This document shows, piece after piece, positions 52,381 through 63,088 of a DNA stretch of 64,000 bases. This DNA is from Caballeronia sp. SBC1 (lineage in GTDB: Bacteria > Pseudomonadota > Gammaproteobacteria > Burkholderiales > Burkholderiaceae): the NCBI RefSeq assembly GCF_011493005.1, contig NZ_CP049156.1, positions 372,001 to 436,000 on the forward strand. Reading direction: 5' to 3'. The notes below the pieces were generated by a model. That model was not told the origin of the DNA and did no database searches. It saw only the letters and a list, made by a program, of their open reading frames with translations. Positions within the stretch are counted from its first letter, which is position 1; each line of letters starts with the position of its first letter. The position numbers and the translations under genes were made by a program.

Positions 52381-52394
52381 TAGGATAATTCGTA
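52381..52394 (-). promoter_or_regulatory. RcsB/RcsAB-box-like site upstream of regulator 1
   Basis: On the minus strand TACGAATTATCCTA matches 11 of 14 positions of the enterobacterial RcsAB box consensus TAAGAATATTCCTA. It lies 294 bp upstream of the first RcsB-like regulator. The consensus is from memory, and a match of this quality can arise by chance. Confidence 0.3.
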
Positions 52395-52553
52395 TAGAGC
52401 TGTCGGGTATTTGAAAACTACTCTGACCCACGTTGAAACCCGCGCGATGCAGCTTTTATCCACAAGCAATCCATTGCAGGAAACAGCCAGGCAACGCAGC
52501 GTGCCGACCCTCGTCGCAATAGGACAAGTCTTGTATTGCCGCGCTGCGCAGCG

Positions 52554-52572
52554 GGAACATTGAGAGTGTTCC
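52554..52572. promoter_or_regulatory. inverted repeat GGAACA-N7-TGTTCC before regulator 1
   Basis: The six-base arms are perfect with a seven-base spacer, about 115 bp upstream of the first regulator start, and TATATA follows directly. The layout fits a dimeric operator near a promoter. The binding protein is unknown. Confidence 0.35.
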
Positions 52573-52687
52573 TATATAGAGCGGCTGATCGCCGTGTTCT
52601 TATGTGCAACAGCGCATTACCAAATTGATCGTTGCCAGTCGGCGCGGATTCAACCCGAAGTGCAAACGAAAAAACTGAGAGGCGGCA

Positions 52688-53335
52688 TTGAAACTGCGAA
52701 TCGTTCTGGCAGACGATCATCCGTTCGTTTTGCTCGGCATTCGAGCGACGTTCAGCATGGATGAAAATCTGGAGGTCGTGGCCGAGGCTGCAAGCGCTGC
52801 AGAGTTATTGAGGCTGCTGGCGTACACCCCGTGCGACGTGCTGGTGACCGACTTCGCCATGCCCGAGCAAGGCCTGCAGGCGGAAGACGGCCTGCGGCTC
52901 ATCAAGCGTTTGCGGCGAGACTGGCCGGCCATCAGCATTGTCGTGCTGACCAGCATGAGCAATGTCGCCATCCTCCGGTCAATCCTGGCGGCCGGTGCCA
53001 TGAGCTTGCTCAACAAAGTCGAGTCCATGGACGAGCTTGCCGCGGCAGTCAGGTTTGCGGGTGTTGGACGCCGTTACCTGAGCACGTCGATTGTCTCAGC
53101 GCTGGCAGTAGCGGGCGCCGAAACCGACGCATTGGGAGAGGGTCCGCGCCTTTCGCCGCGGGAGATTGAAGTCGTGCGAATGTTCGCGAGCGGTTTGTCG
53201 ATCACGGAGATCGCGCGTTTCATGAAGCGCGATGTCCGCACGATCAGCCGTCAGAAGCGCGACGCCATGAGCAAGCTCGGGGTTCAGAACGATCCGGGAT
53301 TATTCGCGTTTGCACGCGCGCACGGAATGACGTGA
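52688..53335 (+). CDS. RcsB-like response regulator 1
   Basis: A 215-residue NarL/FixJ-family transcription regulator. The receiver domain has the acidic pair LADDHP, the predicted phosphorylation site D55 (VTDFAMP), T in VVLTS and K in LLNKVES, so it should be competent. The LuxR-type helix-turn-helix (LSPREIEVVRMFASGLSITEIARF ... ISRQKRDAMSKLGV, in parts) resembles RcsB. The start is TTG at 52688 after GAGAGGCGG. It is the first of three such regulators. Confidence 0.9.
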   Translation: MKLRIVLADDHPFVLLGIRATFSMDENLEVVAEAASAAELLRLLAYTPCDVLVTDFAMPEQGLQAEDGLRLIKRLRRDWPAISIVVLTSMSNVAILRSILAAGAMSLLNKVESMDELAAAVRFAGVGRRYLSTSIVSALAVAGAETDALGEGPRLSPREIEVVRMFASGLSITEIARFMKRDVRTISRQKRDAMSKLGVQNDPGLFAFARAHGMT

Positions 53336-53370
53336 TGGTTGGGATTGCGAAAGGCTTTCGGAGGCATCTT

Positions 53371-53493
53371 ATGTCGATGACGGCGCGGATCAACGATCCT
53401 TCAGCAGGCTGTGTAAGCACCGGTAAATTGAAACCCGCCGCGAGCGGACGCATCACCTGGGCGAATTTCAGGTTAAAAGAGGTTAGTAAATGA
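53371..53493 (+). CDS. candidate 40-residue ORF coupled to regulator 2
   Basis: An ATG at 53371 with a perfect GGAGG six bases upstream opens a 40-codon frame. Its TGA overlaps the start of regulator 2 as ATGA. The product (MSMTARINDPSAGCVSTG ... FRLKEVSK) is basic, without membrane segments or known motifs. The strong ribosome-binding site and coupled stop suggest a translated leader or small protein. Confidence 0.45.
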   Translation: MSMTARINDPSAGCVSTGKLKPAASGRITWANFRLKEVSK

Positions 53494-54167
53494 TTGCGTT
53501 CACTCAACGAATCAAATTAGCGGTAGCGGACGATCATCCATTAGTTATTCTTGCCATCGAGCGCCTGATCGCTAATGTGCAGAACATTGAAATTGTGTGT
53601 CGCGCGCAGGATTCAACCGGGCTGGTGGAAGCACTCGAAACGCAGGAATGCGACGTCGTCATCATGGATTTTTACATGCCGGGCGGCGAGCATGGCGATG
53701 GTATCGACTTGATCAAATACATCGTCGAACATCATCCGAAAGCGGCAATCGTCGTGTTATCCATGACAACGGATGCGGATCTCATCGCGCGTGCACTCGA
53801 TGCAGGCGCCAACGCGGTGGTCAGCAAGCAGGACAGGCTCGAGCTTATCTACGTGGCGATCGTGACGGTGCTCGCGCACGAGGATTATCTTGGACCGTCA
53901 GTGCGCATACTGCTCGCGGATGCGAATTCGGCAAACCGGGTGGATCTCATTCGACAGAAACTCACGCGCCGCGAGCTTGACGTCATTGCCCGCTATGCGC
54001 GCGGCGGCAACGTCACCGAAATCGCGCGCGAACTCGGCCGCAGCGTCAAGACAATCAGCGCGCAAAAATGCGCCGCCATGCGCAAGCTCGATTTATCGAC
54101 GGATGCCGAGCTTTACCGGTTTGCATTTGACAGTGGCCTGGTGCAGGCACAACGACTGGGAGTTTAG
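53490..54167 (+). CDS. RcsB-like response regulator 2
   Basis: A 225-residue NarL/FixJ-family regulator. The receiver has VADDHP, predicted phospho-Asp D60 (IMDFYMPGG), the S/T position in VVLSM and K in VVSKQDR. The DNA-binding domain has LTRRELDVIARYARGG and KTISAQKCAAMRKLDLS, RcsB-like. It is distinct enough from regulators 1 and 3 to be an old paralogue. Its start overlaps the stop of the 40-codon ORF; GAGG lies upstream. Confidence 0.9.
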   Translation: MIAFTQRIKLAVADDHPLVILAIERLIANVQNIEIVCRAQDSTGLVEALETQECDVVIMDFYMPGGEHGDGIDLIKYIVEHHPKAAIVVLSMTTDADLIARALDAGANAVVSKQDRLELIYVAIVTVLAHEDYLGPSVRILLADANSANRVDLIRQKLTRRELDVIARYARGGNVTEIARELGRSVKTISAQKCAAMRKLDLSTDAELYRFAFDSGLVQAQRLGV

Positions 54168-54189
54168 CCAACGGCATTAGAAGCCGTCG

Positions 54190-54237
54190 CGATACAAGTA
54201 AAAATTGTATCGATCTGGCCCAGGAGACACGTGGGCC
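54190..54237 (+). promoter_or_regulatory. inverted repeat and hairpin in the leader of regulator 3
   Basis: CGATACAA (54190-54197) and TTGTATCG (54205-54212) form a perfect eight-base inverted repeat with a seven-base A-rich spacer. Just after it GGCCCA (54217-54222) and TGGGCC (54232-54237) form a hairpin whose loop contains GGAG. The first could be an operator or a terminator-like fold of regulator 2; the second could hide a ribosome-binding site. Confidence 0.4.
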
Positions 54238-54264
54238 ATCACGTACCAGGCGCATAAAACAAAA

Positions 54265-54909
54265 ATGGATTCGAAAATCCGGATTATCGTGGCGGACGAT
54301 CATGCGGTCGTGCGAGAGGGAATCCGCATCTGGCTTGAGCGAGATCCCCGAGTGGAGGTTGTGGCGACAGCCGACGATACCGAATCGCTCGCAGACCGAA
54401 TAGACAGCTTTCCATGCGACGTCGTGATATCCGACATTGGCATGCGGGGCATCAACGGCGAAAACAATGCCATAGCGTTTCTACGACGTTTCTTGCGGCA
54501 ACCACAGCGGCCGCGAGTGATCATTGTGACCATGATCGCGCAGCCCCAAATGCTGGCAGGGTTGCTGGACCTGGGCGTGGACGGCCTGGTCGACAAGCGC
54601 GATTGCATGGACGCACTGAACCAGGCGGTTATCGAGGTGATCGATGGCGGACGTTTCGTCTCGACGCACGCGGGAGCGCTTCTGGGCAACGAAATGGTCA
54701 ATGTCACCGGCCGCGCCGGCGTACTGAGCGCCCGCGAGTGGGAGGTTTTACAGTTGTACGCGAGCGGCTTGTCGCTGATCAGCATTGCGCAGCGTCTGGC
54801 GCGCAGCGTGAAAACCATTGGTACGCAAAAGCGCAGCGCGATGCGTAAGCTTGGGCTGAGAAGCGAGCTTGAACTGATCGATTATTTGAGACAAATCGGC
54901 CTCGCTTAA
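54265..54909 (+). CDS. RcsB-like response regulator 3
   Basis: A 214-residue NarL/FixJ-family regulator. The receiver has VADDHA, predicted phospho-Asp D57 (ISDIGMRG), T in IIVTM and K in LVDKRDC. The output domain has LSAREWEVLQLYASGLSLISIAQ and KTIGTQKRSAMRKLGL. The ATG at 54265 has only a weak ribosome-binding site; an AGGAG lies 38 bases upstream in a hairpin loop, and an in-frame TTG at 54205 is a possible longer start. Confidence 0.88.
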   Translation: MDSKIRIIVADDHAVVREGIRIWLERDPRVEVVATADDTESLADRIDSFPCDVVISDIGMRGINGENNAIAFLRRFLRQPQRPRVIIVTMIAQPQMLAGLLDLGVDGLVDKRDCMDALNQAVIEVIDGGRFVSTHAGALLGNEMVNVTGRAGVLSAREWEVLQLYASGLSLISIAQRLARSVKTIGTQKRSAMRKLGLRSELELIDYLRQIGLA

Positions 54910-54998
54910 CGTCGGAACCACGTCGACATTTCCCTCTAAGCGCCACCGCCAGAACAACACCCGCACCGAACAAACGCCCACTGTTTCTCAGAAATGTT

Positions 54999-55012
54999 TA
55001 GGAATGCTCTGA
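54999..55012 (-). promoter_or_regulatory. RcsB/RcsAB-box-like site upstream of aqpZ
   Basis: On the minus strand TCAGAGCATTCCTA matches 11 of 14 positions of the consensus TAAGAATATTCCTA. It lies 127 bp upstream of the aquaporin start and shares the TAGGA half (plus strand) with the site at 52381. This is suggestive, not proven. Confidence 0.3.
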
Positions 55013-55138
55013 TTAAGTCGGTGTGCCTTTCACTCCAGACTTAAACGCTTTACTTCGCCAACGCGCGTGACCGAACCCACCTCTTTTGTGCGGTCCGGCG
55101 TGCATTGGCTGAGGGCGAATTTCAGACGGGGTGATGGC

Positions 55139-55897
55139 ATGTTCAAGAAACTGATAGGCGAGTGCGTGGGAAGCTTTTCGCTTGTCTTCTTCGGCTGCGG
55201 CAGCACCGCGCTCGCGAGTGGTTATTTTCGCCCGGACATGGGACTCGTTTGCCAGGCTGTGGCCTTCGGCCTCGCTGCAACCACGCTTGTCTACGTTCTG
55301 CGCCCCGTTTGCTCCGCTCATTTCAATCCCGCGGTCACCGTGGGTTTCGCCATTGCCAACCGGTTTCCCGTGAGGGACTTGGGTCCAACCATAGCCGCTC
55401 AGGTCGTGGGAGCCACCGCCGGAGGGTGGCTCTTGTATGTCGTTGCAAGCGCACGCCCGGGAATCTCGCCCGATCTCATCGCGTTCGGCGCCAATGGTTA
55501 CGGGGCTCATTCGCCCGCCGGATATCAGCTGCACGCCGCGCTGATCGTCGAGGCGCTGATGACCTTCGTGTTCGTCCTCGTGACTCTCTCGGTCGCATCC
55601 GGCAGGCGCGCGCGTTTCAACGACGCCGCGCTGATCGGGCTTTCGCTGACGTTGTGTTCCCTGCTCGCCATTCCGGTGACAAACGCGTCTTTGAACCCGG
55701 CTCGTTCCACCGGCGCCGCGCTCGTGGTGGGCGGCTGGGCCCTGGATCAACTCTGGCTGTTTTGGGCGGCGCCGCTCGCGGGCGGCGTTCTGGCCGGCCT
55801 CATCCATCCCATGCTCCAGCGCAGCGCTTCGAGTAAGAGCGAGCCGCAGACGCGCGTTGGCCGGATCGACAGCGCGCTCGACAAGCAGCTGTCGTAA
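55139..55897 (+). CDS. aqpZ: aquaporin (AqpZ/MIP family)
   Basis: A 252-residue inner-membrane channel with six membrane segments and both NPA loops (HFNPAVTVGFAIANR and SLNPARSTGAALVVGG). The residues around the loops fit water-selective AqpZ rather than glycerol facilitators. The ATG at 55139 follows GGGGTGAT; an upstream start at 55067 would add a non-hydrophobic extension. It lies 14 bp before the sensor kinase gene, so the two are almost surely one operon. Confidence 0.92.
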   Translation: MFKKLIGECVGSFSLVFFGCGSTALASGYFRPDMGLVCQAVAFGLAATTLVYVLRPVCSAHFNPAVTVGFAIANRFPVRDLGPTIAAQVVGATAGGWLLYVVASARPGISPDLIAFGANGYGAHSPAGYQLHAALIVEALMTFVFVLVTLSVASGRRARFNDAALIGLSLTLCSLLAIPVTNASLNPARSTGAALVVGGWALDQLWLFWAAPLAGGVLAGLIHPMLQRSASSKSEPQTRVGRIDSALDKQLS

Positions 55898-55911
55898 CGA
55901 GCGCGCACATC

Positions 55912-58900
55912 ATGTCCTCCCCCTCCATTCGCCGTCTGATTCGCCTGATGACGCTGCTCGTGCTCGTATGGGCCACATCGAGCGTTTCGGCCGAGCCTTT
56001 GCGCGTTGACCGCGCGAAGGCAACTACCCAAGGCTATTCGACGCTGATCCGCGAAGAATTCCCGGCTCGCCGCTCAGAATCCATGCCAGCAAGCAGCGGC
56101 CCTAAACAGTCGCAGACGTTGAGTTTAAGCGCCGACGAACGCGCCTATTTGCACTCGCTGCCACCTCTTACGCTGGGCGTCGATGGCAGTTGGGCGCCAT
56201 TCAGCTATGTGGATTCCCGCGGCGAGTCGAGTGGCATCGCAATGGCATACGCAACGTATTTATCGAAGGCGCTCGATATCGATTTCGAGCAGCGTGTGTA
56301 TCCCGATTGGGCCGGTGTGTCGAATGCGTTTGCTCGTGGCCAGATCGACATGCTCACGACTACCGAGCGCGAGACGCCGCGTCTTGCTGGCGGAATCTCG
56401 ACCGGATCGGTGGCGGACTATCCACTCGTCATGGTCGGGCGGTTGGGCGAACCTGTGACGAAGGGTATCGAGGAGGCGTTGTCGTGGCGGATCGTGGTGA
56501 CGGCGCGTCTGGCGGCTAGCGGGCGGCTTGGCAACTTGCCGCCGAGCGCCGCGCTTATCATCGCTCCCACTCTGAGCGCCGGGCTGGATCGCGTGGCGCG
56601 GGGCGAAGCGGATCTGTTCGTAGGTGATCTCGTTGCCGCCGATATCGCGCTCGCCGCGCGTTACGAGGACGAACTGAAGATCATCGGGCCGGCCGGCAAC
56701 TTCGAGCATATGAGCTTCGCGCTGCGTCCGGAATTCAGCCGGCTCGTGCCGTTGATCGACCGTGCGTTGAGCGCTATGCCTGACGCCGACAAACAGCGCA
56801 TCCTCGCCGTCCGCCAGGCAGCGCTCGACCCGCCGGCAAGCGGCTGGAGCGTCAACGCAATGCGTCTTTTACCCGCGCTGATTGCTATTGGCGTGGTGCT
56901 GGCGGTCACGTTGCGGGCGTTCGTTCTCCTCCAGCGCGAAATGGCACGGCGAGTGGAAACGGAGCAGCGTCTCGCTACACAACTCAGTTTCCAGCAGACC
57001 ATGATGGAGGTTGTGCCGTATCCGCTGATCGCGAAGGACCGGGAGAATCGCTACATAGCGGTGAATCGAGCGTTCGAAAAGACGTTGGGGCTGAGGCGCG
57101 AGGACATCATCGGGCGCACGACGCTCGAGGTTCAATCGTGGGGGCCCGATAACAGCCAGCGGCTGCATGATCTGGTGGGCATGAGTATCGCGCACGGGCG
57201 GCGCGAGCAGGTCGAAATCGACTTTTACAATCGCGACGGCGCGCCACGTCATGGGCTGTTCTGGACCGGCGCGTTCGCGGCGGCGAACGGGGCAATGGCG
57301 GGTGTCGTTGGCACGATGGTCGACATCACCGATATCCGCGACGCTGAAATGCGCGCGCGCGAAAACGAACGCCGCCTGCACGACGTCACGCGCTCGTTGC
57401 CGGCCGTCGTTTTTCAGTTGCGGCGCGCGAACGATGGGTCGTACAGCTTCCCGTACATCGGCGGCGATACGCGTCATTTATTCGGCGCCGATCTCGCTAC
57501 GCTCAGCAACGACCAGGTGGCTGGTCTATCGTTGATTCACGCCGACGACAAACACCGTGTGCTCGACGCGATCGAACGCTCGGCGCTCACGCTTGAGCCG
57601 GTTCACACGGAGTTTCGGTCGGTAGCCGATAAGGGCCGCCGCTGGATTCGTGCAGATCTCGTTGCGCATCGCGAGGCAGATGGCGTGGTGGTCTGGAATG
57701 GCTATTGGGTCGACGCCAGTGTCGAGCGTGCGCGCGCTGACGAACTCGCCGCGGCGCGCGATGCCGCAGAAGCGGCCTCGCGCGCCAAGGACGATTTTCT
57801 TGCGATGATGAGCCACGAGATTCGTACGCCCATGAACGGCGTGCTCGGATTGGTGGAAGTCTTCGAGACCACGCCGCTCAATCCCGACCAGTCGCAGATG
57901 CTCGGCATGATCCAGGATTCGGCGAGCGCATTGCTGCAGATTCTCGACGACCTGCTCGACTATTCGAAGATCGAGGCAGGGCGTCTCACCATCGAGTCGA
58001 TGCCGATCGACCTGCGTGAACTGGTCGATAACGCCATTGGTTTGCTCGCCGGACGTGCACACGAAAAAGGATTGCGCGTGCGGGTGGATGTATCGCCGGA
58101 TATCGCCGCAAGTGTGCGTGGTGACAGCGTGCGGCTGCGGCAGGTACTTTTCAACCTGATAAGCAACGCCATCAAGTTCACGATGAAAGGCGAGGTCACG
58201 CTCTCGGCGAATCTGGTTAGTGATACGGACGGTGTTCAGACCGTGGAACTGATCGTGGAAGACACGGGCATCGGCATTGCGGCCGACGCGCAGGCGAGCC
58301 TGTTCGAGCCGTTCGTGCAGGCGGAATCGTCCACCACGCGCCGCTTCGGCGGCACGGGCCTCGGCTTGACTATCTGTAACAGGCTGGTCGAACTGATGGG
58401 TGGAACGCTGGAGCTGCAAAGTCAGGTAGGCGTTGGAACGCGAATGATCGTGCGGCTCGACATGCCGATAGAAACCACCAACTATCAGATCGATGGCTTG
58501 CGGGGCAAGAGCGGGATTATCGCTATCGACGATCAGCGGGTGGCGCGCGCGCTGGTCGACTATGGTCAGGCGCTCGGCCTCAAGCTGACAATCCGGTCTC
58601 GCGATGACGCAGCGCTGCGTGATCCGCATACCTTCGACGGCATCGATCTCGTGTTTCTCAGCGAAACTCATCCGGAAGCGCTGCCGCTGAAAACGCGGGT
58701 GATTCACGTCACGGAAAAACCGAAACCCACGGGTTATCGCATTTTGGACAACGACATTCGCGTAAGCGTCAATCCAATCTCCTGGCGCGGCCTGGGCGCT
58801 GCATGCGTGGCCGCGTTGACGGGGTTGCCGCAGCTTGTCTCGCGTGCGACCCGCGATATCGAGACGAACAACGAGCCTCCCGATCGCGAGCGCGCAATCC

Positions 58901-59685
58901 GCATGGGGCGGCTTGTGCTCGTCGCGGAAGATCATCCGGTGAACCAGGAGCTGATCCGCCATCAACTGGCGCTGCTGGGTTTTGCGTGCGACGTGGTGCA
59001 GGACGGCGTTGAAGCACTCACAGCGCTCAAGCAGACGCGTTACGGCTTTCTCATCACCGACTGCCACATGCCGAACATGACCGGGTATGAACTGGCGCGG
59101 CGCGTGCGCGCGAGCGAACTGGGGTTGTCGAAGAGATTGCCCATTCTGGGCATTACCGCGAGCACCGCGCCCGAGGAGTTGTCCATGTGCCGCGAAGCCG
59201 GCATGGACGACTGCTTCGTCAAGCCCACGCGACTCGTCACCTTGCGTGACCATTTGAACCGATGGCGTGTAATGGACAGCGGATCAGCGGCGCCGGAACC
59301 GGTTGTTATCGAGGAGCCGAATGTTGAGACCTTGGAGGTAGAAACCGATGAGGTCGATCTGGACTACATGACGCAACTCTGGGGCAGTGAGACCACGGTG
59401 AAGGCATTGCTTGACGCATTCGTGTCGTCGTTCCGCGATGATCTCGACACGCTGAGGGCTTTGCTCGACGGCGGCAGCGTCGCGCAGTTGCGCGAGTGGC
59501 ATCACCGGGTGATCGGAGCAGCTAGCGTGTTGCAGTATCGGCCGTTGCAGATTGCGCTCGATGGGTTCCGGCGCGATCTCGTCGACAAACCGGACGGCCT
59601 TCGACGCCAGGATGGCGCCGCGCTGATCACGCGCTGTGAGGTTTTGCTCGAGCGGATTGAAGCGCAATGCGCGGAGCTGGCGTAA
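55912..59685 (+). CDS. unorthodox hybrid sensor histidine kinase (EvgS/BvgS-like)
   Basis: A 1257-residue membrane sensor. Order: signal peptide (cleavage near residue 27, SVSA); one periplasmic solute-binding-protein 3 domain (about 80-315, starting LTLGVDGSWAPFSYVD); one membrane segment (about 321-342); two PAS-like domains (about 365-490 and 495-620); HisKA with H635 (MMSHEIRTPMNG); HATPase (NAIKFTMKGEV, EDTGIGIA, GGTGLGL). Then come a receiver-like domain that lacks the phospho-Asp (about 860-965), an intact receiver with D1050 (LITDCHMPNMTG) and Hpt with H1198 (WHHRVIGAAS). BvgS and EvgS carry two periplasmic domains; this has one. The three upstream regulators are the likely outputs. 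Confidence 0.93.
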   Translation: MSSPSIRRLIRLMTLLVLVWATSSVSAEPLRVDRAKATTQGYSTLIREEFPARRSESMPASSGPKQSQTLSLSADERAYLHSLPPLTLGVDGSWAPFSYVDSRGESSGIAMAYATYLSKALDIDFEQRVYPDWAGVSNAFARGQIDMLTTTERETPRLAGGISTGSVADYPLVMVGRLGEPVTKGIEEALSWRIVVTARLAASGRLGNLPPSAALIIAPTLSAGLDRVARGEADLFVGDLVAADIALAARYEDELKIIGPAGNFEHMSFALRPEFSRLVPLIDRALSAMPDADKQRILAVRQAALDPPASGWSVNAMRLLPALIAIGVVLAVTLRAFVLLQREMARRVETEQRLATQLSFQQTMMEVVPYPLIAKDRENRYIAVNRAFEKTLGLRREDIIGRTTLEVQSWGPDNSQRLHDLVGMSIAHGRREQVEIDFYNRDGAPRHGLFWTGAFAAANGAMAGVVGTMVDITDIRDAEMRARENERRLHDVTRSLPAVVFQLRRANDGSYSFPYIGGDTRHLFGADLATLSNDQVAGLSLIHADDKHRVLDAIERSALTLEPVHTEFRSVADKGRRWIRADLVAHREADGVVVWNGYWVDASVERARADELAAARDAAEAASRAKDDFLAMMSHEIRTPMNGVLGLVEVFETTPLNPDQSQMLGMIQDSASALLQILDDLLDYSKIEAGRLTIESMPIDLRELVDNAIGLLAGRAHEKGLRVRVDVSPDIAASVRGDSVRLRQVLFNLISNAIKFTMKGEVTLSANLVSDTDGVQTVELIVEDTGIGIAADAQASLFEPFVQAESSTTRRFGGTGLGLTICNRLVELMGGTLELQSQVGVGTRMIVRLDMPIETTNYQIDGLRGKSGIIAIDDQRVARALVDYGQALGLKLTIRSRDDAALRDPHTFDGIDLVFLSETHPEALPLKTRVIHVTEKPKPTGYRILDNDIRVSVNPISWRGLGAACVAALTGLPQLVSRATRDIETNNEPPDRERAIRMGRLVLVAEDHPVNQELIRHQLALLGFACDVVQDGVEALTALKQTRYGFLITDCHMPNMTGYELARRVRASELGLSKRLPILGITASTAPEELSMCREAGMDDCFVKPTRLVTLRDHLNRWRVMDSGSAAPEPVVIEEPNVETLEVETDEVDLDYMTQLWGSETTVKALLDAFVSSFRDDLDTLRALLDGGSVAQLREWHHRVIGAASVLQYRPLQIALDGFRRDLVDKPDGLRRQDGAALITRCEVLLERIEAQCAELA

Positions 59686-59860: not shown

Positions 59861-60781
59861 TCAAAACAATGCGTTCATGGCCGAGTCCTTCCTGAAATGC
59901 GCGAGCGCGAAATCAACAAACGAGCGTGTTTTGGCGGACACGTGACGGCGTCCTGGATATACCAGCGACACTTCTTTGTCCGCGTTACTCACCGCGTAAT
60001 CAGTGAGCAAACGCACGAGCGCACCCTGTTCAAGATCGTCCGCGACATGGCTTTCCGGCAGTGCTGTGACGCCCATTCCTGAGAGCGCGGCTTGTCGAAG
60101 CATTTGCGAATTGTTGACCGTGTAATCCGGGTCGATAACGATATCTTCGTCCTCACCGGTCGGGCCTGTGAACGACCACGTGGACCCGTGTATGTCCGCT
60201 GATGGCGACAGGAACGCGTGGGCGACAAGATCAGCGGGCCGCAGCGGGACGCCGTGTTTCGCGAGGTAATCGGGTGCCCCCACAATAACCGGCGTCACCT
60301 TGAACAAGGGCCGGTTAATCAACGTGCCGCTGTTCACCATGCGCGGCACGACAATCCCGACATCGAAACCCTCATCCACCAGATCCACTGGCCGATGCAG
60401 CAGCGTTAGACGCAACTTCACGTTGGGAAACGCCTCGCGAAACTCACACAGCAGCGGCGTGAGTCCGAACAATGAGAACGACGCCGATGCCACGAGCTTC
60501 AGTGTGCCGGAGGGATCGAACGATGTTTGCGACACCGTGGATTCAATCGCCTCGACCTGCTCTATCACCGCCCGGCAGCCTTCGGCGTATGACGCGCCGG
60601 CTTCGGTGAGCGACACGCTTCGCGTTGTACGGTTGAGCAGTCGCGTATTGAGGTGCGCCTCGAGCAACGCGACGTAACGTGTGATGACAGCGTTCGATAG
60701 TTCGAGCGCTGCCGCAGCCCGGCCAAACGACCCGGTTTCAGCGACCTTCACGAACACGCGCATGGCTTGAAGATGATTCAT
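59861..60781 (-). CDS. LysR family transcriptional regulator
   Basis: A 306-residue regulator. The N-terminal winged helix-turn-helix is MRVFVKVAETGSFGRAAAAL ... RLLNRTTRSVSLTEAG, followed by the effector-binding domain (TLKLVASASFSLFGLTPLL). The ATG at 60781 fits the family start. LysR proteins often control a divergent gene; the nearest divergent gene is the porin, but the 475-bp gap makes the link weak. Confidence 0.9.
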   Translation of the reverse strand: MNHLQAMRVFVKVAETGSFGRAAAALELSNAVITRYVALLEAHLNTRLLNRTTRSVSLTEAGASYAEGCRAVIEQVEAIESTVSQTSFDPSGTLKLVASASFSLFGLTPLLCEFREAFPNVKLRLTLLHRPVDLVDEGFDVGIVVPRMVNSGTLINRPLFKVTPVIVGAPDYLAKHGVPLRPADLVAHAFLSPSADIHGSTWSFTGPTGEDEDIVIDPDYTVNNSQMLRQAALSGMGVTALPESHVADDLEQGALVRLLTDYAVSNADKEVSLVYPGRRHVSAKTRSFVDFALAHFRKDSAMNALF

Positions 60782-61256
60782 TGACCGACCGATGAACAAA
60801 GAGTCGCCCCGCGTAAGTGACGCCTCGGGGCCGAAAAGACACGCGTGAGGACGGTCTTTGCCAAGCTCCCACTCGCGTGCGCGATTTTAATCCGGTGGGG
60901 CTACCGGTGAAATAGGAATAGGACTAAAGGGGAGCAAAGCGAGCTTGTGTCGTGCGGTTGCTACTGTCGCAACTCTGCAACGCGTGCAACTAATTAGGTA
61001 TCCGGAGGTTAATTAGAGATAGCTGGAATGCCTGATGGAGCAAGCGTTTGAGCGAAAGGAAACCGTATTTTTCGACTTATTCAAAAAGCCTTTTGTGCGT
61101 GTGTTGATGGTTCGGTTAAAAGCCCGCGCCCTAAACTTTGGTTCAGCCGAATCACGGTGTCCGGTGAAGACCGGAAACGAGTCGCCTTGATGTCACGCAG
61201 GAAGGCTTCGCGTTATGCAACCAGTCGAGTCGTCAGACTCATTAAAGGGATCACAC
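60782..61256. other. intergenic region upstream of the porin
   Basis: No gene is supported in this 475-bp gap. It contains an inverted repeat CTAATTA (60990-60996) and TAATTAG (61010-61016) with a 13-base spacer. It also contains a TAGGAATA half-site at 60913-60920 similar to the RcsB-box-like sites. Porin promoters usually lie in such long regions. Confidence 0.5.
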
Positions 61257-62402
61257 ATGAAAAAGACTCTGATCGTCGCGGCCGTTGCCGCTTCTTTTGC
61301 GACCGCCGCAAGTGCGCAGAGCAGCGTTACGCTGTACGGCCTTATCGATGCTGGCTTCAGCTATGTGAACAATGAAGTTGCTCCGAATACTGCCAAGGGC
61401 AGCGCCGCAGCATTCCGCGTGTCGAGCGGCAACATCAACGGTAGCCGTTGGGGCCTGAGGGGCACGGAAGACCTCGGTGGCGGCATGAAGGCAATCTTCA
61501 CGTTGGAAAGCGGTTTCACCATGGGCGACGGTTCGGCGCTTCAAGGTGGCCGGGAGTTCGGTCGTCAGGCATATGCTGGTATCTCAACTGCTCAGTTCGG
61601 TACCGTAACGCTCGGTCGCCAGTATGACTCCTTGGTCGACTATCTCGCCCCAATGACGGCTACCGGTAGCTGGGGTGGCACGTACTTCGCGCATCCGCTC
61701 GACAACGACAACGCGAACAACTCGTTCCGCGTCAACAACTCGGTCAAGTACCAAAGCGCGAACTACTCCGGCCTCACGTTTGGCGGCCTGTATGGCTTCT
61801 CGAACCAGGCTGGTGGATTCGGTAACAACCGTGCTTACAGCGCGGGCGCACAATACGCGAACGGTCCGTTCAAGATTGCAGCGGCTTACCTGCAACTGCA
61901 AAATCCGAACTCCAATCTCACCGGCGGTGCGATGACGGACAGCGGTGCTGGGACGAACTTGGTGGCGAACGCAGCGAGTGCGTCGGTGCAGACGCAGCGT
62001 ACGTACGGTGTTGGCGCGAACTACGCGATTGGTCCGGTGACAGTCGGCGGTGCATGGACGCAAAGCCGCTTCCAGTTCGCAGTGGGCGATTCCACAGCGC
62101 GCTTCAACAACTATGAAGTGAATGCACGTTATGCACTGACGCCGGCATTGGCACTTGGCGCAGCGTATACGTACACCGACGTGAAGGGCTACACCACGGG
62201 CGCGAACAACAACGGCCACGAGAAATTCCACCAGTTCGGTTTGCAGACCGACTACTCGTTGTCCAAGCGCACGGACATCTACGCGGAAGGCGTGGTTCAG
62301 CTTGCTAAGCAGGGTGCCGAAGCACAGATTTACAGCACGGGCAACTCAGCCGCTCATGGCAACCAAGTAGTGGTTACGACGGGTATTCGTCACCGCTTCT
62401 AA
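61257..62402 (+). CDS. Gram-negative trimeric porin
   Basis: A 381-residue outer-membrane porin of the betaproteobacterial OmpC-like family. The signal peptide (MKKTLIVAAVAASFATAASA) is followed by the hallmark start SSVTLYGLIDAGFSY, then GSRWGLRGTEDLGGGMKAIF. The C-terminus ends in phenylalanine (TGIRHRF), needed for outer-membrane insertion. AAAGGGA precedes the ATG. An intrinsic terminator follows. Confidence 0.95.
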   Translation: MKKTLIVAAVAASFATAASAQSSVTLYGLIDAGFSYVNNEVAPNTAKGSAAAFRVSSGNINGSRWGLRGTEDLGGGMKAIFTLESGFTMGDGSALQGGREFGRQAYAGISTAQFGTVTLGRQYDSLVDYLAPMTATGSWGGTYFAHPLDNDNANNSFRVNNSVKYQSANYSGLTFGGLYGFSNQAGGFGNNRAYSAGAQYANGPFKIAAAYLQLQNPNSNLTGGAMTDSGAGTNLVANAASASVQTQRTYGVGANYAIGPVTVGGAWTQSRFQFAVGDSTARFNNYEVNARYALTPALALGAAYTYTDVKGYTTGANNNGHEKFHQFGLQTDYSLSKRTDIYAEGVVQLAKQGAEAQIYSTGNSAAHGNQVVVTTGIRHRF

Positions 62403-62626: not shown

Positions 62627-63088
62627 ATGTTCACGAGATTCAGTCTGCGTAACAGCGTGTTGGGTTTGAGCGTGGTGTTGATGTCGTCCGTTGCGTCAAT
62701 GGCATCGAACTCAGCGTTCGCCGATACCGTCGCTTTGCAAGCGAACCTGCAGCCGTCGAGTGAAGTGCCGCCGCGCGTGAGCAAGGGGCACGGCGTGCTG
62801 AAAGCCACCTTCGACACCACGACCAAGACGCTGCAGTGGACCATCACGTACGCCGATTTGTCGGGTCCTGCGACCATGGCCCATTTCCACGGCCCTGCGC
62901 CCGTGGGACAGAACGCGAAGGTGCAGGTTGCTATCGACAAGAACGCGCTGCCTAGTCCTATCACCGGGCAGGCTACGCTTTCGGAGCAACAGGCCACTGA
63001 TCTGTTGGCCGGCCAGTACTACTTCAATATCCATACCGAGCAGAACCCGACGGGAGAGATTCGCGGGCAGGTCATGCCGGCGAACTGA
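62627..63088 (+). CDS. exported CHRD domain protein
   Basis: A 153-residue protein with a signal peptide (cleavage near NSAFA) followed by one CHRD domain: VALQANLQPSSEVPPRVSKG, MAHFHGPAPVGQNAKV and the end NIHTEQNPTGEIRGQVM. CHRD domains occur in secreted proteins of many phyla and in animal chordin; the bacterial role is unknown. GGGAG precedes the ATG. Confidence 0.88.
   Translation: MFTRFSLRNSVLGLSVVLMSSVASMASNSAFADTVALQANLQPSSEVPPRVSKGHGVLKATFDTTTKTLQWTITYADLSGPATMAHFHGPAPVGQNAKVQVAIDKNALPSPITGQATLSEQQATDLLAGQYYFNIHTEQNPTGEIRGQVMPAN

Follow-up and report, generated by a model that had tools for sequence, protein, structure and literature searches.

A conserved gene cluster in Caballeronia and its relatives joins three RcsB-like regulators and an aquaporin to a BvgS-type hybrid kinase and carries RcsB-box-like sites at each transcription unit

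The Roc system of Pseudomonas aeruginosa (RocS1/RocS2 with RocA1, RocA2 and RocR) and the RcsC-RcsB/PvrS-PvrR system of the same organism, which control cup fimbriae, are the closest precedents for the gene cluster described here. As set out in the available parts of two reports, their unorthodox kinases combine a transmitter, a receiver and an Hpt domain, the Hpt domain interacts with several regulators, and DNA-binding outputs control surface fimbriae (PMC3083521, PMC2696094). The additional regulator of the Roc system, RocR, is an EAL enzyme, whereas our cluster encodes three DNA-binding RcsB-like paralogues. In a further difference from Roc, the kinase operon includes an aquaporin gene, and each of the three transcription units bears RcsB-type boxes. 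The cluster lies in a window of 64,000 nucleotides from Caballeronia sp. SBC1 (contig NZ_CP049156.1, positions 372,001 to 436,000), whose genome comprises 8.85 Mb in five contigs. A GTDB genome scan places the nearest named relatives of its kinase in Caballeronia. Our literature search, made through search listings and text passages, returned no paper describing the cluster.

Three further systems resemble parts of it. The enterobacterial Rcs system (RcsC-RcsD-RcsB) provides, with RcsB, the nearest named family and structural match of the regulators, and the box resembles the RcsB half-site TTAGGAA. Unlike in Rcs, the Hpt domain lies inside the kinase, there are three regulators rather than one, and the cut-off of the RcsB family is not reached. 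An RcsD-type separate phosphotransfer protein is not among the five cluster genes, to which the search was confined. BvgAS of Bordetella and EvgAS of E. coli share the kinase domain order, and the kinase matches BvgS flytrap and PAS chains as well as EvgS, but the window kinase has one flytrap domain instead of two, it has two PAS domains, and the regulators are RcsB-like and not close to EvgA. Finally, the aquaporin finds its best matches in AqpZ chains and shares their NPA motifs but differs from them at two positions of the selectivity filter.

We hold with moderate confidence that the cluster encodes a vertically inherited, self-regulating phosphorelay of the BvgS type feeding RcsB-like paralogues that act on their own cluster and on some surface genes. 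As its domains suggest, the kinase would sense a periplasmic ligand via its Venus-flytrap domain, and phosphate would move from His to Asp to His along the domains observed, ending at the Hpt domain. From there it would pass to one or more of the three response regulators, RR1, RR2 and RR3. These may bind the inverted repeat observed before RR1, RR2-RR3 and aquaporin-kinase, which would create feedback on sensor, channel and regulators together. They may also act on a small number of scattered genes, among them a type I secretion operon and genes for trimeric autotransporter adhesins and outer-membrane proteins. The aquaporin would then be an output of the circuit, a modified channel and not its sensor.

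The five genes follow ssb on the + strand (Table 1); their order, RR1, RR2, RR3, aquaporin and hybrid kinase, is the one described in the first-pass annotation. We read the gene order by tblastn at the loci of the best 80 of 338 kinase relatives in GTDB genomes, and all fractions are conditional on a similar kinase. The full order was present in 54 of the 80 loci. Clusters lacking only the aquaporin made up 17 loci and those lacking only RR3 another 6, while RR1-RR3-kinase, RR1-RR3-aquaporin-kinase and a cluster interrupted by a contig end were each seen once. The RR1 match is partial (60-115 aa) in five loci (L033, L035, L041, L045 and L046). The 80 loci come from Caballeronia, Paraburkholderia and Trinickia and from strains catalogued as Burkholderia sp. 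A second, independent set of 249 Burkholderiaceae genomes contained the N-terminal half of the kinase at E <=1e-40 in 73 genomes and in 6 of 25 genera; within the genus of the window, the kinase occurred in 26 listed genomes and not in 5, which measure 2.8-4.2 Mb.

In a tree of 74 proteins, RR1 (22 rows), RR2 (20) and RR3 (20) form separate clades with full support; the placement of single-regulator rows is unsure owing to their long branches. The cluster is inherited as a unit, and the co-conservation that the first-pass annotation had asked of its proposed system is seen both in the synteny and in the three monophyletic regulator lineages. Two-component genes are very common in these genomes and might come to lie together by chance, but the order conserved in three genera, the three co-inherited paralogue lineages and the shared promoter box refute a chance neighborhood of ordinary genes, for which we see almost no probability left. 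More distant kinases (g24, g25 and two in one g11 genome) are accompanied by one RcsB-like regulator and no aquaporin. The pair of kinase and one regulator therefore looks older, and the triple with the aquaporin derived. At the distant kinase loci L120, L128 and L130, no adjacent pair of this kind was seen.

The intergenic DNA of the window cluster contains three near-matches to the RcsAB box, which we generalized to the inverted repeat TMRGA-N4-TCYKA with 10 scored positions. The cluster comprises three transcription units, RR1, RR2-RR3 and aquaporin-kinase. RR3 is probably co-transcribed with RR2, given the short spacer without a box (0 of 71 loci). As judged from their spacing, aquaporin and kinase form an operon: the median gap is 9 bp over 62 loci, 21 of which show a 4-bp overlap, with one outlier of 1748 bp. 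A box with at least 9 of 10 positions was found in 74 of 78 RR1 promoters, 65 of 75 RR2-RR3 promoters and all 79 aquaporin-kinase promoters; after shuffling, the corresponding rates were 8.7, 3.5 and 5.1%. Perfect boxes were present in 61, 60 and 62 of these promoters, respectively, and in no shuffled sequence. All three units together carried a box of at least 9/10 in 60 of 74 loci.

Counted by zone, 61 boxes fall in the 39.5 kb upstream of RR1, 60 in the 11.1 kb between RR1 and RR2 and 59 in the 14.8 kb before the aquaporin. There is one in 195 kb of RR1-RR3 and aquaporin gene bodies, none in 197.5 kb of kinase and two in 313 kb further upstream. None of 2820 random inverted repeats of equal degeneracy reached 50% of the loci in any zone; the closest, at 49% in one zone, was itself a variant of the box repeat. 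Where RR3 is present and the aquaporin absent (18 loci), the box still lies between RR3 and the kinase (4 at 10/10, 14 at 9/10). Three genomes with a single regulator and kinase have a box 108-109 bp before the regulator match. According to the available part of one report, RcsB contacts the half-site TTAGGAA via K180 and S184 (PMC5829831), and a TTAGGA half-site stands within the window's own box.

The three regulators each consist of Response_reg and GerE domains above the Pfam cut-offs. Their best NCBIfam model is in each case RcsB (NF008098), at about 144-145 bits for RR1, 142 for RR2 and about 128-129 for RR3, below the cut-off of 235. A structure-sequence search, made with RR1 alone, returned RcsB chains as the top solved relatives (127 bits, best other protein 72). 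The RcsB likeness claimed in the first-pass annotation thus holds at the level of the best curated model and, for RR1, of solved structures. The phospho-Asp that it had noted in all three is present in 75 of 79 aligned copies of RR1 (4 lack it), 78 of 78 of RR2 and 74 of 74 of RR3, window included. With phospho-Asp, Thr/Ser and Lys, the receivers are built as in RcsB. This near-universal retention of phosphorylation residues is consistent with, but does not prove, one kinase serving three regulators.

Within the DNA-binding domain, position 180 is K in RR2 (78/78) and RR3 (74/74) and R in RR1 (79/79), and together with the KT[IV]S region it is conserved across all three paralogues. The recognition helix is fixed within each paralogue and different between them: position 184 is occupied by R in RR1 (75/79 copies), by A in RR2 (78/78) and by T in RR3 (69/74), and position 187 by R, C and R, respectively. 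Fixed but differing helices suggest that the three paralogues have overlapping, non-identical targets.

Hpt domains dock on the first receiver helix of response regulators. In RR3 this helix does not follow the P-[FL]-V-L-L pattern shared by RR1 and RR2, with R at position 16 in 54 of 74 copies, and equal branching of the relay is therefore not to be assumed. An arrangement without a true three-way branch, in which the kinase phosphorylates RR1 and/or RR2 while RR3 is unphosphorylated, a dimer partner or fed by another phosphate source, is a serious contender that we place a little below even. The loss of RR3 from 6 of the 80 loci fits this arrangement, as does the activity of RcsB with partner proteins, phosphorylated or not, described in the available part of one report (PMC5829831). 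On the other hand, phospho-Asp, lysine and T/S are each retained in all 74 RR3 copies, which suggests that RR3 is phosphorylated.

The kinase of the window contains SBP_bac_3, two PAS, HisKA, HATPase and REC domains according to Pfam. As for the first-pass annotation's account of it, the periplasmic binding domain, the two PAS domains and the receiver were found, while the Hpt domain, when excised alone, stays 1.4 bits short of the Pfam cut-off (Table 1); its HR[VIL]xGA motif is present in 77 of 80 loci. A sequence search of structures matched solved BvgS flytrap and PAS chains and EvgS. These matches and the order PAS, HisKA, HATPase, REC and (borderline) Hpt agree with the BvgS/EvgS type assigned before, although the EvgS equivalog NF007420 is not reached (239.9 bits against a cut-off of 1995). 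The tandem flytrap arrangement of BvgS and EvgS is not present: the window kinase (1257 aa) has one Venus-flytrap domain, compared with two in the Paraburkholderia xenovorans kinase L025 (1496 aa), and the missing domain is the first of those two.

The closest structures to the aquaporin are AqpZ chains (203 bits), and the AqpZ equivalog is not reached (235.4 bits against a cut-off of 256). Both NPA motifs are intact, the second alanine being present in 61 of 62 copies. In AqpZ the selectivity filter is F43-H174-T183-R189. H174 and T183 are replaced in all 62 aligned copies of the cluster aquaporin, of which 42 read F-Y-G-R, 8 F-S-A-R (window included) and 12 otherwise. Judged by its predicted filter, the protein is not an ordinary AqpZ, and we infer that it is not specialized for water.

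The first-pass annotation had taken the linked aquaporin as a hint of an osmotic or envelope signal. A system for osmotic or water stress in which the aquaporin is the water-flux effector would agree with an AqpZ-type channel co-transcribed with the kinase in most loci. The gene is, however, missing from 17 of the 80 clusters, all 17 of which retain the other four genes, and two further aquaporins encoded in this genome (L001 and L002) have, as judged by eye, the H and T that are replaced in the cluster copies. Moreover, no osmolyte transporter was recognized among 18 box-target proteins scanned with Pfam. The osmotic hint thus fares poorly, and we regard such a system as very unlikely. The aquaporin might instead be a repurposed channel for some small non-water solute in a signaling unit wired by its own boxes, with the three paralogues, through their differing recognition helices, turning a single relay into graded or combinatorial output. 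For example, it may set the level of the compound or stress reported by the flytrap kinase. We consider this proposal improbable.

For whole-genome scans we extended the pattern to TTMRGAN4TCYKAT and used the reversed pattern as control. The genome of the window contains 16 extended sites (4 reversed). Eleven kinase-bearing genomes contain 7-24 each (150 in total, control 12) and nine other genomes, three of them with the single-regulator pair, 1-12 each (55 in total, control 8). The cluster had been described as self-contained, a description contradicted by the occurrence of its promoter box elsewhere in the genome. In eight genomes, 91 of 110 sites were mapped, the cluster's own 19 being excluded; 70 of the 91 look intergenic by a crude open reading frame call. 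Among the box neighbors in the window's genome are a type I secretion operon and genes for an Ig-like (Big_13) protein, two YadA-type adhesins, an outer-membrane barrel protein, a glycosyltransferase, a lipase and an OmpR-type regulator. Other sites lie at genes of unknown family, at a transposase-like gene or inside coding DNA. Of the eight genomes, 8 have the box at a DUF4096 gene and 7 at the gene for the OmpR-type regulator; it was seen in 2 genomes each for the secretion operon, the Big_13 gene and the barrel-protein gene, and in 1 each for the GT4 and lipase genes. ESPR adhesin genes carry a box within 500 bp in 7 of 45 cases. As a control, none of the listed genes resembling the window's porin begins within 500 bp of any mapped site (91 in all).

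The DUF4096 gene (L165:3681-4151, C1 near 2344197) is of the IS4/5 transposase type and encodes about 155 aa. Its box lies 59-82 bp upstream in the eight genomes and at a similar place in several others; among genomes without the five-gene cluster, it was not found at 10/10 in G017, G006 and G015. The stand-alone gene looks like that of a domesticated transposase-derived protein under putative RcsB-type control. The OmpR-type response regulator (L170:3969-4790, C3 near 493403) stands beside a divergent MFS gene, and its box suggests a possible regulatory cascade.

The weakest link in the model is which RcsB-like protein uses the box. The boxes could mainly serve a stand-alone RcsB-like regulator (C1:3680147-3680848) that controls the cluster from outside, with RR1-3 using other sites. 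This protein carries the RcsB-type helix KTISTQK. Each of 12 kinase-bearing genomes examined contains a match to it of at least 65%, which is split into two pieces in G091 and begins at residue 25 in G085. The box at DUF4096 in genomes without the five-gene cluster also speaks for this regulator. Its own promoter, unlike that of every cluster unit, has no box of at least 9/10 within 600 bp. Single-regulator relatives in three genomes have the box before their own regulator, and all three cluster paralogues show conservation at position 180 and in the KT[IV]S region. We judge outside control by the stand-alone regulator unlikely, yet deserving some weight. Its gene (L168:14145-14849) has a YadA-type gene at a distance of about 4 kb and the gene for a large RTX-repeat protein in its vicinity. 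In G091 (C13:29667-30358, a 650-contig assembly) the two pieces reflect either a real break or an assembly error.

Several observations weigh against our favored self-regulating phosphorelay. The box pattern and its degeneracy were generalized, from the RcsAB box, after viewing these very promoters. At position 184 the three paralogues carry R, A or T instead of the base-contacting S of RcsB. The stand-alone regulator, which could bind the boxes, scores 185 bits against the RcsB model, higher than any of the three. One single-regulator relative has a box without the QK recognition-helix motif. Some box sites occur in genomes without a detected kinase, and of six genomes that have the DUF4096 gene but lack the five-gene cluster, three (G011, G016 and G044) show its box; the box therefore belongs to a wider RcsB-type regulon. 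As to the adhesins, 8 sites lie near ESPR genes where 0.06 are expected under an even spread, an enrichment that is overstated as AT-rich upstream DNA is ignored, and in four of the eight genomes 0 of 22 ESPR genes have a box.

Two rules were rejected. A regulon limited to the cluster is ruled out by the DUF4096 box in genomes without the five-gene cluster. The rule that the box tracks the QK recognition helix agrees with three single-regulator genomes that have a box and five that do not, but fails for the second regulator of L119.

The first-pass annotation makes no mention of the promoter box common to the units, of the operon formed by aquaporin and kinase, or of the putative connection with surface genes. 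A natural, long-maintained set of three paralogues beside one kinase makes insulation, cross-talk and heterodimerization after duplication testable in non-pathogenic soil bacteria, and the shared box offers direct reporters for the circuit. The altered-filter channel in a kinase operon, cleanly lost in one lineage with the box retained, is an unusual natural experiment. In addition, the box putatively connects surface adhesins of Burkholderiaceae with RcsB-type control.

Table 1 Features of the cluster in window coordinates.
Feature	Positions	Strand	Evidence
RcsB-box-like site TAGGATAATTCGTA upstream of RR1, 9/10 positions	52381..52394	+	pattern scan; unit-level conservation
Second RcsB-box-like site TGAGAGTGTTCCTA upstream of RR1, 9/10 positions	52561..52574	+	pattern scan
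RR1, receiver and LuxR-type DNA-binding regulator, RcsB-like, TTG start	52688..53335	+	domain and family scans, structure matches, tree, alignment
RcsB-box-like site TCGGAGGCATCTTA upstream of RR2, 10/10	53358..53371	+	pattern scan; conservation
RR2, RcsB-like regulator	53490..54167	+	domain and family scans, tree, alignment
RR3, RcsB-like regulator	54265..54909	+	domain and family scans, tree, alignment
RcsB-box-like site TAGGAATGCTCTGA upstream of aquaporin-kinase unit, 10/10	54999..55012	+	pattern scan; conservation
Aquaporin, AqpZ-like, altered selectivity filter (F43-S174-A183-R189), both NPA motifs intact	55139..55897	+	domain and family scans, structure matches, alignment
BvgS/EvgS-type hybrid kinase, 1257 aa, start 14 bp past aquaporin stop	55912..59685	+	domain and family scans, structure matches
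Kinase periplasmic substrate-binding-type (Venus flytrap) domain, Pfam-matched part	56167..56466	+	domain scan, structure matches
Kinase, two PAS domains	57007..57693	+	domain scan
Kinase, HisKA and HATPase core	57784..58467	+	domain scan
Kinase, receiver domain	58915..59256	+	domain scan
Kinase, Hpt domain, 23.2 bits (cut-off 24.6)	59407..59559	+	domain scan, motif

For RR3 we preferred the ATG at 54265 over the listed TTG at 54205, and the ATG chosen for the aquaporin is internal to a longer open reading frame from 55067. Downstream of the kinase and outside the described unit lie genes for a LysR regulator (59861-60799), a porin (61215-62402) and a CHRD-domain protein (62627-63088), all three of which occur in Caballeronia loci and in some of those from Paraburkholderia.

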